From Sulfurimonas sp. (GTDB lineage: Bacteria; Campylobacterota; Campylobacteria; Campylobacterales; Sulfurimonadaceae), in assembly GCF_026196735.1 (NCBI RefSeq), contig NZ_JAPHUF010000007.1:62001-126000 (forward strand): DNA of 64,000 bases, given 5' to 3'. Positions 18,728-22,825 of this stretch are shown here, piece by piece. The notes beneath the pieces were generated by a model. That model was given only the letters and a program-made list of their open reading frames with translations, searched no databases and was not told the DNA's origin. Each line of letters starts with the position of its first letter. The stretch's first letter is position 1. The position numbers and the translations under genes were made by a program.

Positions 18728-18740
18728 TTGTTAGCAAAGG

Positions 18741-18782
18741 TTGACACACATCAACTAAATAAGCAAAGATATACAATATAAT
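18741..18782 (+). promoter_or_regulatory. Fnr/NnrR-type operator with -10 box upstream of the TusA-like cluster
   Basis: TTGAC-N4-ATCAA at 18741-18754 is a near-consensus Crp/Fnr-superfamily half-site pair. A perfect TATAAT lies at 18777-18782. With a start site about 7 bp after the -10 (near 18789), the box centre falls at about -41.5, the class II activation position. No separate -35 is needed in that arrangement. The regulator could respond to low oxygen or nitric oxide. Confidence 0.65.
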
Positions 18783-18811
18783 CAAATATATAAAAACAAA
18801 GGATTATAAAC

Positions 18812-19156
18812 ATGTCTTTAATACCAAGTGAAGCTTCTAAAGTAGAAGTTGCCGGAGCAACGGTAGATTTTTTTGAGTTAAAAAAAGATGGAGAGAGTAC
18901 TTACTATTTTGATACATCAAAATGCGGTCCTCCTGATCCAATGGTAAATGCAATGAGTGGCTTGAGACTTATAAAAGGAACAAACAATAAGCTTGTTATG
19001 ATTAACCATAAAACACCGGGTGGATTGTTTTCAAAACTTGAAGATGATATATCTCATGAAGCCCAAGAAGTTGATGGCGGTTTAGTAAAAATTACATTTA
19101 CAAGTAATAATTCTTCAGCTGCAAATACAGATTTTGAACAAAATGCTTGTCATTAA
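18812..19156 (+). CDS. Small TusA/DUF2249-like protein (putative)
   Basis: A 114-residue soluble protein. Residues about 33-97 have the pattern of the TusA/SirA/DUF2249 fold: a C-x-P-x-P-M-like turn (CGPPDPM), a helix, a K-L-V-M-I strand, a Pro-Gly turn and a terminal strand KITFT. The TusA-type CPxP is altered to CGPPDP and a second Cys is near the C-terminus (NACH). TusA proteins carry sulfur. DUF2249 proteins are often found with nitrite or NO reductase genes. The assignment is by eye and tentative. It heads a three-gene cluster behind an Fnr-type box. Confidence 0.5.
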   Translation: MSLIPSEASKVEVAGATVDFFELKKDGESTYYFDTSKCGPPDPMVNAMSGLRLIKGTNNKLVMINHKTPGGLFSKLEDDISHEAQEVDGGLVKITFTSNNSSAANTDFEQNACH

Positions 19157-19163
19157 ATAATTA

Positions 19164-20399
19164 ATGTTTTCAGTTTCGCAAGATTTTGCACCTCCATTTA
19201 AATTAATATCTCCCTTTTTTATATTGGGGAGTTTTTTTTATTTGGCAGCAATCATATATTTATTTTTTTTCTCCGCTGAAAATATATCACTTTTAGATAC
19301 CAAGGTATTGAGTCTAACTCATCTTTTTTTACTTGGATTTGTTATGATGACAATTTTTGGTGCAATGGCTCAGTTAGTGCCTGTGGTTTTGGAAGTGGGA
19401 CATTTTGGTGTAGAACTTTTTTATGCTATATGGCCGCTTCTGTCAATCGGAACCATACTAATGGTTTTAGGATTTTTAAATTATCCACAACTTCTTCCTT
19501 ATGGTGGTACTGTAGTCCTAATCTCGATGATGATATTTGTTATGGAGATATTTTTAACAATCAAAAAAGTTGAAAAATTAAATCTTGTTATAACTAGTAT
19601 TTTAATCTCAAATATATTTCTGTTTTTTGGAATAATCTTTGGTCTTGTTATGGCATTAACATACGCAGGAATCATAGAAACAGATATATATGCGCTTCTT
19701 AGAAGTCATGTATTTTTAGTAATAGGAGGTTATATAACTATAACTCTTATGGGACTTTCAGTTGTGTTGCTTCCAATGTTTGGACTTTCACATGGATTTT
19801 CTAAAAAACCACTAGAAATAGCTATGGCTATGATGAGTGTTGCTGTTTTGATAGTTGTATCATCTTCATTTATAGAGTTAAAAATTTTAAATTATATTGG
19901 CTATATTTTATCAATATTATCGCTCATTGTATATTTTTACATGGTGCAGACTATCTATAAAACAAGAGCTAGAAAAGAGATAGATATATATGTTAAATCG
20001 CTTCTATTCTCATATTTTTCTATGATTGCAGCTTTGTTTCTAGCTGCTGCTTATCTGATTTTTGATTTTGAACCATTGCTTTTGAGTTCTGCTTGGTTGA
20101 TATTTTTTGGTTTTTTTGGATTTGCTATTACAGGACATGTATATAAAATTATTCCATTTCTTGTGTGGTTTGAAAGATTTTCACCGCTTGTCGGAAAAGA
20201 AAAAGTTCCAATGTTAACAGATATGCTTCCAAAGAAAAGCTCATCAGCGCAGTTTGTTTTTTCTGCAATTGGGGTGCTAGTGATTGCTATCGCAATTTTA
20301 CTTCAAGATGACGCTCTCATAAAGGCAGGTGCTTCATTTTTACTAATGGGCGCATTAGCCTTAGTTAGAAGTGTGTTTTTTATGATAAATTATAAATAA
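19164..20399 (+). CDS. Polytopic heme-copper-oxidase/NnrS-like membrane protein
   Basis: A 411-residue protein with about eleven or twelve membrane helices and several helix-embedded His residues: LTHLFLLGF in an early helix, RSHVFLVIGGY mid-protein, FGLSHGF, and ITGHVYKIIPFLVWFERFSPL near the end. This spacing recalls NnrS and cytochrome-oxidase subunit I relatives, which bind heme or copper in the membrane. I cannot tell which subfamily it belongs to, and no CuB-type tyrosine cross-link motif is evident. It starts 7 bp after the TusA-like gene and is probably co-regulated by the same Fnr-type site. Confidence 0.6.
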   Translation: MFSVSQDFAPPFKLISPFFILGSFFYLAAIIYLFFFSAENISLLDTKVLSLTHLFLLGFVMMTIFGAMAQLVPVVLEVGHFGVELFYAIWPLLSIGTILMVLGFLNYPQLLPYGGTVVLISMMIFVMEIFLTIKKVEKLNLVITSILISNIFLFFGIIFGLVMALTYAGIIETDIYALLRSHVFLVIGGYITITLMGLSVVLLPMFGLSHGFSKKPLEIAMAMMSVAVLIVVSSSFIELKILNYIGYILSILSLIVYFYMVQTIYKTRARKEIDIYVKSLLFSYFSMIAALFLAAAYLIFDFEPLLLSSAWLIFFGFFGFAITGHVYKIIPFLVWFERFSPLVGKEKVPMLTDMLPKKSSSAQFVFSAIGVLVIAIAILLQDDALIKAGASFLLMGALALVRSVFFMINYK

Positions 20400-20411
20400 A
20401 GGAATTAAGAA

Positions 20412-20711
20412 ATGTATTCAAAAGAAGAATTATTTTTAGCTATATCAAATGTAATCGACCCGGAAGTTGGTTTTAACCTTGTTGAGATGGGGCTTATTTA
20501 TGACGCTTCATGTGACGATGAAGGAAATGTACATGTGACTATGACTCTTTCAACAAAAGCTTGTCCTATGCATCAACTTATACAGCAGTGGGTAAAAGAA
20601 GCAGTTCAAAAGATGGCTAATATAAAAGAGGTAGAGATAGAGTTAGTTTGGGAGCCTGAGTGGAATGTCACTATGGCTGACGAGCATGTAAAAAAAGCAC
20701 TGTCACGCTAG
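20412..20711 (+). CDS. DUF59/MIP18-family metal-sulfur cluster assembly factor
   Basis: A 99-residue SufT/PaaD-like protein. It has the family motif DPEVGFNLVEMGLIYD near the N-terminus and the conserved Cys in STKACPMHQLI, which in relatives takes part in Fe-S cluster assembly or transfer. A good AAGGA site precedes the ATG. Here it ends a cluster with a TusA-like and a heme-copper/NnrS-like protein, so it may mature a metal or Fe-S centre in a respiratory or NO-related enzyme. No suf or isc genes lie nearby. Confidence 0.85.
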   Translation: MYSKEELFLAISNVIDPEVGFNLVEMGLIYDASCDDEGNVHVTMTLSTKACPMHQLIQQWVKEAVQKMANIKEVEIELVWEPEWNVTMADEHVKKALSR

Positions 20712-20745
20712 TACATGTAAAGAAATCTTTAGAGGATGAATGACT

Positions 20746-21792
20746 CTAAAGAACTTTGTAGGCTTTTATTTCTTCAATAACAAGACTGAGAGATCTTTTA
20801 TAAGTTTTTAACTTATTGATGTACTCTAAATCATTAGGTTGTGCAATACTGTTTTTTAAAGCCAAGGCTGAATCATGTAGTGCATCAGCACCAATATTTG
20901 CGGCAACGCCGAGTATATCTAAGAGTATTTTATCGGCACTCGTACTGTCGCTGTTGTTGAGATATTTTTGAATTTTTTCTGAAGAGTCAGTGTATTTTGA
21001 CATAAAATCATTAAGAATTTCCAGGTAAAACTCTTTATCTCCTCCACATATATCTAAGCCTTTTTCAATATTAAACTCAAGTATTTCATCATTTTGAGCA
21101 GATGTATCTTTACTTTCATTACCTGTAGTGTAAGTGTATAGTACATCATAAAGAGCATCCATTTTTAGTGGTTTTTCAAGATGTGCTTCCATGCCGACAT
21201 TCATCATGTTTTTAATATCATCTGCTGCAGTATCTCCGCTAAGAGCTACAACTGGTATATGGTCGTAATTTTTGTTTTCTCTGATTAGTCTAGTGGCTTG
21301 AAAACCGTCAATATTTGGCATATGCGCATCCATTAGAATAACTGCATAATCATTGTCATTTTCTAGTATATTTAAAGCTTCTTGCCCATCATTTGCTATA
21401 GTGACTTCTATGCCTGAGTCAGCCAAAAGAGCAGTAATAACTTTTTGATTTATAATATTGTCTTCTGCTACTAAGATTTTAACACCCTCAAATATTTTAA
21501 AGTCATCTTTTACAATCTTGTCATGATAAACAGGTTCTCTTTTTTTTCTATTGATTTCAGTGGAAGCACTTTTTTCAACTTTTTTTGTTGCAGTTGATAT
21601 TTCAACTTCTGGACTTTGCTCAGGTTTACTTGGAGTCTCTACCTTTGCTTCTTCTGGTTTGATTTCTTCTTTTTTTGTTTTAACATCAACTTTTTTCTGT
21701 GAGATTTTAAGAAAAATATATAAGACAAGTAGCGTTACAGCAGTAACTCCTGCAAGAACCTCTATTAAGTTTTCATTAATTATTGCTTCCAT
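20746..21792 (-). CDS. Membrane-anchored receiver-domain protein with degenerate HPt-like tail
   Basis: One N-terminal helix (about 6-29) is followed by a Lys/Glu/Pro-rich linker, a complete receiver domain (about 105-220; acidic pair AEDN, phospho-acceptor D155 in ILMDAHMP, T/S in ALSGD, K in EKPLK) and an HPt-like helical bundle at 245-345. The HPt motif reads LLDILGVAANIGAD where a functional domain has HxLKG, so the phosphorylatable His is replaced by Leu (about 291). There is no kinase core or DNA-binding domain. A GTG at 21801 could add three residues. It could act as a membrane phosphate sink or a protein-interaction switch. Confidence 0.85.
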   Translation of the reverse strand: MEAIINENLIEVLAGVTAVTLLVLYIFLKISQKKVDVKTKKEEIKPEEAKVETPSKPEQSPEVEISTATKKVEKSASTEINRKKREPVYHDKIVKDDFKIFEGVKILVAEDNIINQKVITALLADSGIEVTIANDGQEALNILENDNDYAVILMDAHMPNIDGFQATRLIRENKNYDHIPVVALSGDTAADDIKNMMNVGMEAHLEKPLKMDALYDVLYTYTTGNESKDTSAQNDEILEFNIEKGLDICGGDKEFYLEILNDFMSKYTDSSEKIQKYLNNSDSTSADKILLDILGVAANIGADALHDSALALKNSIAQPNDLEYINKLKTYKRSLSLVIEEIKAYKVL

Positions 21793-21892: not shown

Positions 21893-22825
21893 ATGCAAAA
21901 CACCCCACATGTTCCAGTTTTATATCGAGAAGTTGTTGAAGTTTTTAAAGATATAGAAGATGGGATAGTGATTGATTGCACGATGGGCTATGGTGGTCAC
22001 TCTTCTATGATTCTTGAAGAAAATCCAAATATAAAACTTATAGCAATTGACCAAGATCAAACAGCCATAGATTTTTCAACTACAAGGTTGAAAAAATTTG
22101 GAGATAGAGTAGAGATAAAAAAAGGTCGTTTTTCATCAGTGATCAAAGATATTGTAAAAGAGTATGATATAAATAATATAAAGGGCGTATTAGCAGATAT
22201 AGGTGTTTCATCTCTTCAACTTGACCAAAAAGAGAGAGGCTTCTCGTTCGAGAGTGATAACCTTGATATGAGAATGGATAAAGAAGCAATGTTAAATGCT
22301 GCTGAAGTTGTAAATGAATATTCTACAAGCGAACTTGAGAAAATACTTTTAGATTATGGTGAGCTGAGAAACTATAAAAAAATAGCATCACATATAGTCA
22401 ATAACCGACCATTTTCTTCTGCAAAGGAGCTTGGTGAGTCTTTAAAACCATTAATGCCTCATGGAAAGAAAATTCATCCAGCAACACTTTTAATGCAGGC
22501 GATTCGTATAGAGGTTAATGATGAGTTGGGTGAGTTGAAATCACTTTTAAAGACTATAGAAGATGCAAAATTTTTAAATGCGAAAGTCGCTATAATATCT
22601 TTTCATTCTTTAGAAGATAGAATTGTCAAGCAAGCGTTTAGTGATTGGAAGAAAAATTGTATCTGCCCGAGTGAAGCAATGAGATGTACATGTACAAATG
22701 ATTATTCACTTGGGAAGATTTTAACAAAAAAGCCTATAATGGCAAAAGATGATGAGTTAAGACAAAACCCTAGAAGCAGAAGTGCTAAAATGAGAGTTTT
22801 TCAAATGGATAATATAAATGAGTGA
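21893..22825 (+). CDS. rsmH: 16S rRNA (cytosine1402-N4)-methyltransferase
   Basis: RsmH (MraW) N4-methylates C1402 of 16S rRNA. The start HVPVLYREVVE, the SAM loop DCTMGYGGHSSMILE and FHSLEDRIVKQ are diagnostic, and the length (310 residues) is standard. As in the classical dcw cluster, it is followed with an 8-bp overlap by an FtsL-like gene, although the rest of the dcw cluster is missing here. Confidence 0.96.
   Translation: MQNTPHVPVLYREVVEVFKDIEDGIVIDCTMGYGGHSSMILEENPNIKLIAIDQDQTAIDFSTTRLKKFGDRVEIKKGRFSSVIKDIVKEYDINNIKGVLADIGVSSLQLDQKERGFSFESDNLDMRMDKEAMLNAAEVVNEYSTSELEKILLDYGELRNYKKIASHIVNNRPFSSAKELGESLKPLMPHGKKIHPATLLMQAIRIEVNDELGELKSLLKTIEDAKFLNAKVAIISFHSLEDRIVKQAFSDWKKNCICPSEAMRCTCTNDYSLGKILTKKPIMAKDDELRQNPRSRSAKMRVFQMDNINE

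Follow-up and report, generated by a model that had tools for sequence, protein, structure and literature searches.

Introduction

The nearest described system to the gene cluster studied here is DrpA/DrpB of Thermus thermophilus, in which a small DUF2249-type protein is tied to nitrate respiration (PMC6282519). DrpA is a DUF2249 protein, DrpB carries one DUF1858 and two DUF2249 domains, and expression of drpAB depends on DnrT, an activator of denitrification genes. The double deletion of drpA and drpB makes the expression of nar and dnr independent of nitrate (PMC6282519). We analysed a 64,000-nucleotide (nt) stretch of DNA from Sulfurimonas sp. (assembly GCF_026196735.1, contig NZ_JAPHUF010000007.1, positions 62,001 to 126,000; "the window"), which contains three genes, here called P1, P2 and P3, the first of which encodes a small protein resembling DUF2249. 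Unlike this cluster, drpAB is described with neither a heme-copper-fold membrane partner nor a DUF59 partner (PMC6282519). P1 also falls below the DUF2249 cut-off and DUF1858 has no match in this genome, whereas some campylobacterial relatives have a neighbouring gene with DUF1858 and DUF2249 domains. We found that a Dnr/Nss-type activator site is conserved in front of the cluster and is common to the nor-nir genes, and that P1, P2 and P3 stay side by side and co-occur with respiration that produces or consumes nitric oxide (NO).

The membrane protein P2 recalls the heme-copper oxidase homology (HCOH) proteins including NnrS, to which Pei et al. in 2014 reportedly ascribed a 12-helix heme-copper fold, few histidines and an association with DUF2249 and denitrification. 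P2 and NnrS share the heme-copper fold in the broad sense, but P2 does not match the NnrS profile. NorB of the cytochrome c-dependent NO reductase (cNOR) and CcoN of the cbb3 oxidase also share the overall fold (Z 31.8-34.2) at 10-13% identity. P2 differs from both in lacking a conserved CuB/FeB histidine in helix 7 and in having a single histidine in helix 10. SufT/DUF59 proteins have PF01883 and a conserved cysteine in common with P3, which does not lie beside suf genes and scores below the SUF_assoc cut-off. DUF59 proteins are needed when iron-sulfur demand is high (PMC4982691).

The Dnr, NnrR and Nss regulons use a box of the TTGAT-N4-ATCAA type, as does the P1 promoter, and the available portions of the reports do not list the P1-P2-P3 cluster among the targets (PMC1274295, PMC8139620, PMC11539149). 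In Nitrosophilus labii, exact TTGA-N6-TCAA sequences begin 48-49 nt before the start sites predicted for napA, norE and nosB, the same geometry as in the P1 promoter (PMC11539149). A preliminary description of the window considered such a module new to the phylum. This stands for the cluster, of which we found no description for Campylobacterota in the literature searched. It does not stand for the box, which has been reported before denitrification genes of the phylum (PMC11539149), nor for the link of DUF2249 with denitrification or nitrate respiration, which has been published (PMC6282519, PMC11218638).

The promoter box and its conservation

Taken alone, a single box counts for little in an AT-rich stretch of 64 kb such as this window. 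The exact sequence TTGAC-N4-ATCAA occurs twice in the window, compared with 0.35 occurrences expected. The second copy (22047-22060) looks like a chance occurrence, since it lies inside an open reading frame (ORF; 21893-22825) and has no good -10 element at the right spacing. The copy before P1 was accepted as real because it is conserved across orthologous promoters. From orthologous clusters of relatives we obtained 70 distinct upstream regions of sufficient length, and found TTGAY-N4-RTCAA in 60 of them, against a mean of 0.14 (maximum 2) in dinucleotide shuffles. The best -10 hexamer lies exactly 22 nt 3' of the box in 57 of these 60 promoters. When the promoters were aligned on the -10 element alone, with the box ignored, the box columns reached 1.97 bits (G) and 1.81 bits (C), while columns further upstream stayed at or below about 0.35 bits. 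The gene 5' of P1 varies between lineages (a proA-like gene, a Crp/Fnr gene and others), and the box is therefore not part of a passively inherited neighbourhood.

With a predicted start site about 7 nt past the TATAAT, which itself stands 29 nt before the P1 start codon, the box is centred at about -41.5. The class II position claimed in the preliminary description is thus borne out. Furthermore, in a wider set of 38 loci, mostly from other families and with a few repeating genomes already counted, TTGA-N6-TCAA was present in 27, some of them from the Campylobacter-like family f3, and 23 of the 27 have a -10 element at 22 nt.

Candidate regulators

The examination of regulators was confined to PF13545-positive proteins, of which this genome has two, one about 1.2 kb from napA (L086) and one at C13:74967 (L092). 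A Crp/Fnr gene also adjoins P1-P2-P3 in more than 20 loci, directly 5' of P1 in many vent Sulfurimonas clusters and 5', divergent or 3' in others, and its recognition helix mostly reads PETLSR. L092 has no cysteine, L086 and the cluster-adjacent regulators have 0-3 scattered ones, and the cysteine cluster that ligates [4Fe-4S] in Fnr was found in none of the proteins examined. In a tree with several long, uncertain branches, the cluster-adjacent regulators are separate from the nap-adjacent clade, and that of locus L025 groups with L092.

The box had been labelled as Fnr/NnrR-type. Fnr was rejected as the regulator, since the candidates lack its cysteine cluster. According to a review, the phylum has no known FNR orthologue, and the three Nss regulators of Wolinella respond to nitrate, NO and nitrous oxide (N2O) (PMC6682613). 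Because of these two points and the matching geometry in N. labii, we call the element a Dnr/Nss-like site; it is unlikely to be an Fnr site.

Co-occurrence with denitrification genes

To describe the distribution of P2, we compared it with denitrification genes using lists copied by hand from tables and genomes of common ancestry, so that all p-values are descriptive. Among 121 genomes of the family, P2 (at least 40% identity) and cytochrome d1 genes were both present in 50, P2 alone in 5, d1 alone in 11 and neither in 55 (Fisher p=2.4e-17). The corresponding counts within the genus were 24, 2, 1 and 8 (p=1.6e-5). In the family, the association of P2 with NorB, NosZ and NapA is looser than that with cytochrome d1. 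Across 298 genomes of the phylum, P2 and NO-reductase homologues gave 70, 39, 15 and 174 (Fisher p=3e-25), and in family f3 every one of the 28 Nor-positive genomes had P2. All 26 P2-positive genomes of the genus have NapA.

P2 also tends to lie near these genes. In 23 of the 24 genomes compared, 4-55 kb separated it from norB, and in the remaining one 81 kb; in other genomes it lies 6-13 kb from napA. A particular link to NosZ was set aside, as it is weaker than the link to nir and nor genes, and NosZ was not found in this genome. The earlier proposal of a tie between the cluster and genes for denitrification and NO agrees with the co-occurrence, the proximity and the same box on the nor-nir and NirDL promoters (Table 1). 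Taken alone, we consider this link very likely.

The predicted proteins

The folds of P1 and P2 are known from predicted structures only; sequence searches of solved structures gave no match for either protein. The AlphaFold model of P2 has a predicted local distance difference test score (pLDDT) of 85.8 and a predicted template modelling score of 0.87. It superimposes on CcoN with Z 34.2 (root-mean-square deviation (rmsd) 3.3 over 384 residues) and on cNOR structures with Z 33.5 (rmsd 3.5 over 376) and Z 31.8. The modelled fold is clearly that of a heme-copper-oxidase subunit I, as had been suggested. The NnrS half of that suggestion did not hold. PF05940 had no match in P2 at E up to 1, nor in four homologues (L080, L074, L072, L155) and a distant paralogue (L124) at E up to 0.1 or 0.01, and NnrS membership was rejected by profile. 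For COX1 (PF00115), P2 of the window had no match, L074 reached 45.4 bits against a cut-off of 34.8, and L080 stayed below it at 23.4. A profile-profile comparison of P2 with NorB returned nothing.

P2 had also been called histidine-rich, which is overstated. Four histidines are invariant or nearly so, namely the invariant H53 (helix 2), H182 (helix 6) and H210 (loop 6-7) and the near-invariant H325 (helix 10), and H80 is present in most homologues. The homologue alignment has no conserved histidine in helix 7, so the set of six that includes the CuB/FeB pair is incomplete. By helix number, H53 and H325 are the putative low-spin heme ligands in the model, with H182 nearby. Since the CuB histidines are missing, P2 should be neither an oxidase nor an NO reductase, and we take it as a probable non-catalytic homologue that binds heme. 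The loops that carry positive charge follow helices 4, 6, 8 and 10, as expected if both ends of P2 lie inside; from these charges, the conserved stretch SPLVGKxKVPML would be on the cytoplasmic side. The paralogue (L124:3392-4696; G000:C20:35550-36680) is 24% identical to P2, lies behind a hemerythrin gene, and has counterparts of H53 and H182 but not of H325. In one relative (L140:1498-2730) a TAG codon interrupts P2, so that the gene is broken or the assembly is in error.

P1 scored 14.4 bits and its best homologue 18.2 bits against DUF2249 (PF10006), below the cut-off of 29.5, with most of the domain covered and matches in several homologues. One homologue gave a subthreshold match to TusA (PF01206; 17.9 bits). 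The model of P1 (pLDDT 85.6) has the SirA-like structure 3hz7 as its best solved match, with Z 7.7 and a Foldseek probability of 0.99 (71 residues superimposed at rmsd 2.1). E. coli TusA gave Z 6.6, and both Z values are under the tool's caution level of 8. P1 thus appears TusA/DUF2249-like in its modelled fold and weakly so in sequence, which supports part of the earlier assignment. TusA-type sulfur transfer was rejected. The cysteine of KCGPPDPM, the putative counterpart of the TusA CPxP-type cysteine, is kept in part of 25 homologues and replaced by E, T, S, A or L in the others, and a sulfur-carrier role is therefore unlikely. The histidine of MINHK (H66) is invariant and the C-terminal C113 is present in 22 of the 25. 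A match to the NCBIfam rusticyanin model (21.7 bits against a cut-off of 146.7) was taken as spurious.

P3 matches DUF59 (PF01883) with 59.2 bits against a cut-off of 23.5, as had been proposed, and its C51 is invariant. Its nearest solved relative is TM0487 (E 1.6e-26), and it reached 86.2 bits against the SUF_assoc equivalog, whose cut-off is 143.4. By these matches P3 is an ordinary DUF59/SufT-type protein. An additional DUF59 gene, 33% identical, lies 5' of P1 in one relative (L041:1904-2230).

Locus organization and other boxed promoters

The three ORFs, in a genome of 2.19 Mb, are separated by 7 nt (P1/P2) and 12 nt (P2/P3), and their order and strand are kept in nearly all complete loci across the phylum. 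A proA-like gene, identified by eye, lies 5' of P1, and a convergent response-regulator gene lies 3' of P3. The inverted repeat between P3 and the response-regulator gene is possibly a two-way terminator common to both. Part of the phylum (L074-L079, L133, L135 and others) has a fourth gene behind P3, which encodes an FmdE domain (PF02663). A DUF1858-kind protein is encoded just 3' of P3 in L142 (3291-3791; DUF1858 and DUF2249 by Pfam), L145, L146, L165 and L166, and its domain content recalls DrpB of Thermus; DUF1858 has no match in the Sulfurimonas genome under study. Elsewhere the neighbours include NapD and siroheme/NirDL-type genes (L143, L144, L147, L163, L164).

Table 1. Features of the P1-P2-P3 locus (window positions) and of other boxed promoters in the same genome (contig and position)
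Feature	Position	Strand	Description	-10 element
Crp/Fnr box, Dnr/Nss/Fnr-type	18740..18755	+	GTTGA-N6-TCAAC perfect repeat; core TTGAC-N4-ATCAA = TTGACACACATCAA at 18741-18754	
-10 element	18777..18782	+	perfect TATAAT	22 nt after box
P1	18812..19156	+	ORF, 114 amino acids; TusA/SirA-like fold (predicted), distant DUF2249 relative	
P2	19164..20399	+	ORF, 411 amino acids; 12-helix heme-copper-oxidase subunit I fold (predicted)	
P3	20412..20711	+	ORF, 99 amino acids; DUF59/SufT-type (PF01883)	
Inverted repeat, 9 bp	20726..20752		TCTTTAGAG-N9-CTCTAAAGA, read from sequence, between P3 and the convergent response-regulator gene	
Box	C7:31231		before NorC-like, NorB-like, NirS, cytochrome c, NirJ, NirF, CobA-like operon	22 nt
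Box	C7:36129		before NirDL-type siroheme decarboxylase	21 nt
Box	C7:279631		before hemerythrin	22 nt
Box	C7:458574		before cytochrome c553	22 nt
Box	C13:69467		before outer-membrane barrel, NosL-like protein and ATP-binding cassette (ABC) genes, ending at Crp/Fnr gene	
Box	C4:259480		before multiheme cytochrome	21 nt

The genome has 26 boxes, compared with 15 for a reversed control pattern, and more than half of the 26 fall inside ORFs. Many of them are therefore chance occurrences. The boxes entered in Table 1, read from separate stretches of the genome, stand where a promoter site should and are the informative ones. In Table 1, NirJ, NirF, CobA, NosL and c553 were named by eye, NirS by profile match, and NirDL, hemerythrin, cytochrome c and the outer-membrane barrel by Pfam. 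At L125:4826-9160, one apparent operon behind a box of the same type holds NirS, NorB, NorC-like and heme d1 genes. NirS, NorB and NapA were matched in the Sulfurimonas genome under study, and NosZ had no match there, so that N2O may be its end product of denitrification. The boxed cluster of outer-membrane barrel, NosL-like protein, ABC transporter and Crp/Fnr genes (L126:9539-15159; G000:C13) is retained though NosZ was not found.

Discussion

We propose that P1-P2-P3 is an accessory module of NO metabolism and denitrification that would support heme or iron-sulfur centres under NO exposure by protecting, repairing or maturing them, and we regard this proposal as evenly poised. A Crp/Fnr regulator without the Fnr iron-sulfur cluster (L092 at C13:74967, or relatives) would switch on the three genes when oxygen is low and nitrogen oxides are present. 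P2 would be a membrane heme protein that holds its heme through H53 and H325, with H182 close by. Its conserved cytoplasmic loops could dock two soluble proteins, P1, with a putative TusA fold and no sulfur-transfer cysteine, and P3, a DUF59 iron-sulfur maturation factor. The three would act together on the heme or iron-sulfur centres that NO damages. It is also possible, though we lean against it, that P2 is a membrane NO receptor or heme station without a catalytic metal site that relays a signal or repair to P1 and P3, the three forming an undescribed conserved NO-response complex.

Several observations weigh against the accessory-module proposal. The data on the cluster speak for its regulation and company rather than its activity, and we infer the mechanism. 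Heme binding by P2 is read from helix position, and H325 is missing in the homologue L080. No NO reductase was matched in 39 of the 109 P2-positive genomes of the phylum, mainly in the Arcobacter-like family f10 and part of f3, and the box is absent from all four clusters sampled from the Arcobacter-like f10 genus g39. A P2 subfamily of about 36% identity does not track NirS. Because the genomes share ancestry, the Fisher p-values overstate the independence of the observations.

The main rival is a sensory or regulatory module resembling Drp, in which P1 and P2 would sense nitrate or NO and modulate the Crp/Fnr regulator, and P3 would maintain an iron-sulfur or other cofactor. The Thermus deletion phenotype (PMC6282519) argues for it, as do the DUF1858-kind proteins just behind P3 in five campylobacterial loci and the Crp/Fnr genes beside the cluster, although adjoining regulators are equally normal for plain target genes. 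However, most clusters, including the one in the window, lack a DrpB-like gene, DUF1858 is unmatched in this genome, and the Thermus paper gives no partner like P2 or P3. On balance we consider this rival unlikely. A role confined to one enzyme of the pathway, for example the maturation of NapA, heme d1 or copper enzymes, would fit the proximity to napA, NapD and siroheme/NirDL-type genes and the presence of NapA in every P2-positive genome of the genus. For NosZ alone it is opposed by the presence of the three genes here in the absence of a NosZ match, for NirS alone by the five family genomes with P2 and no d1 match, and for NapA by its frequent occurrence without P2 (20 family genomes); we judge it quite unlikely. 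P2 itself could be an enzyme related to NorB that reduces NO or another nitrogen oxide, given its NorB-like fold (Z 33.5 and 31.8), the COX1 match of L074 and its company with NO metabolism. But with no conserved histidine in helix 7 and only one in helix 10, a NorB-type binuclear centre could not be built, the cluster has no cytochrome c partner, and most P2 genomes already possess a NorB homologue. An enzymatic P2 is thus very unlikely.

As a whole, the preliminary description read the sequence accurately and came close in its functional guess. Of its labels, Fnr should be replaced by an Nss/Dnr-type site, NnrS by a heme-copper-fold homologue, and TusA by a TusA-fold/DUF2249-like protein. 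Among the chemolithotrophs that denitrify at vents and redoxclines, Campylobacterota are a major group, and little is known of how they control respiration. The three genes, tied to NO and preceded by a strikingly regular promoter from Sulfurimonas to Campylobacter-like genomes, are a clear target for gene deletion. They would also provide fixed partners for the DUF2249-like proteins, whose link to denitrification has so far been made in Thermus and in haloarchaea.
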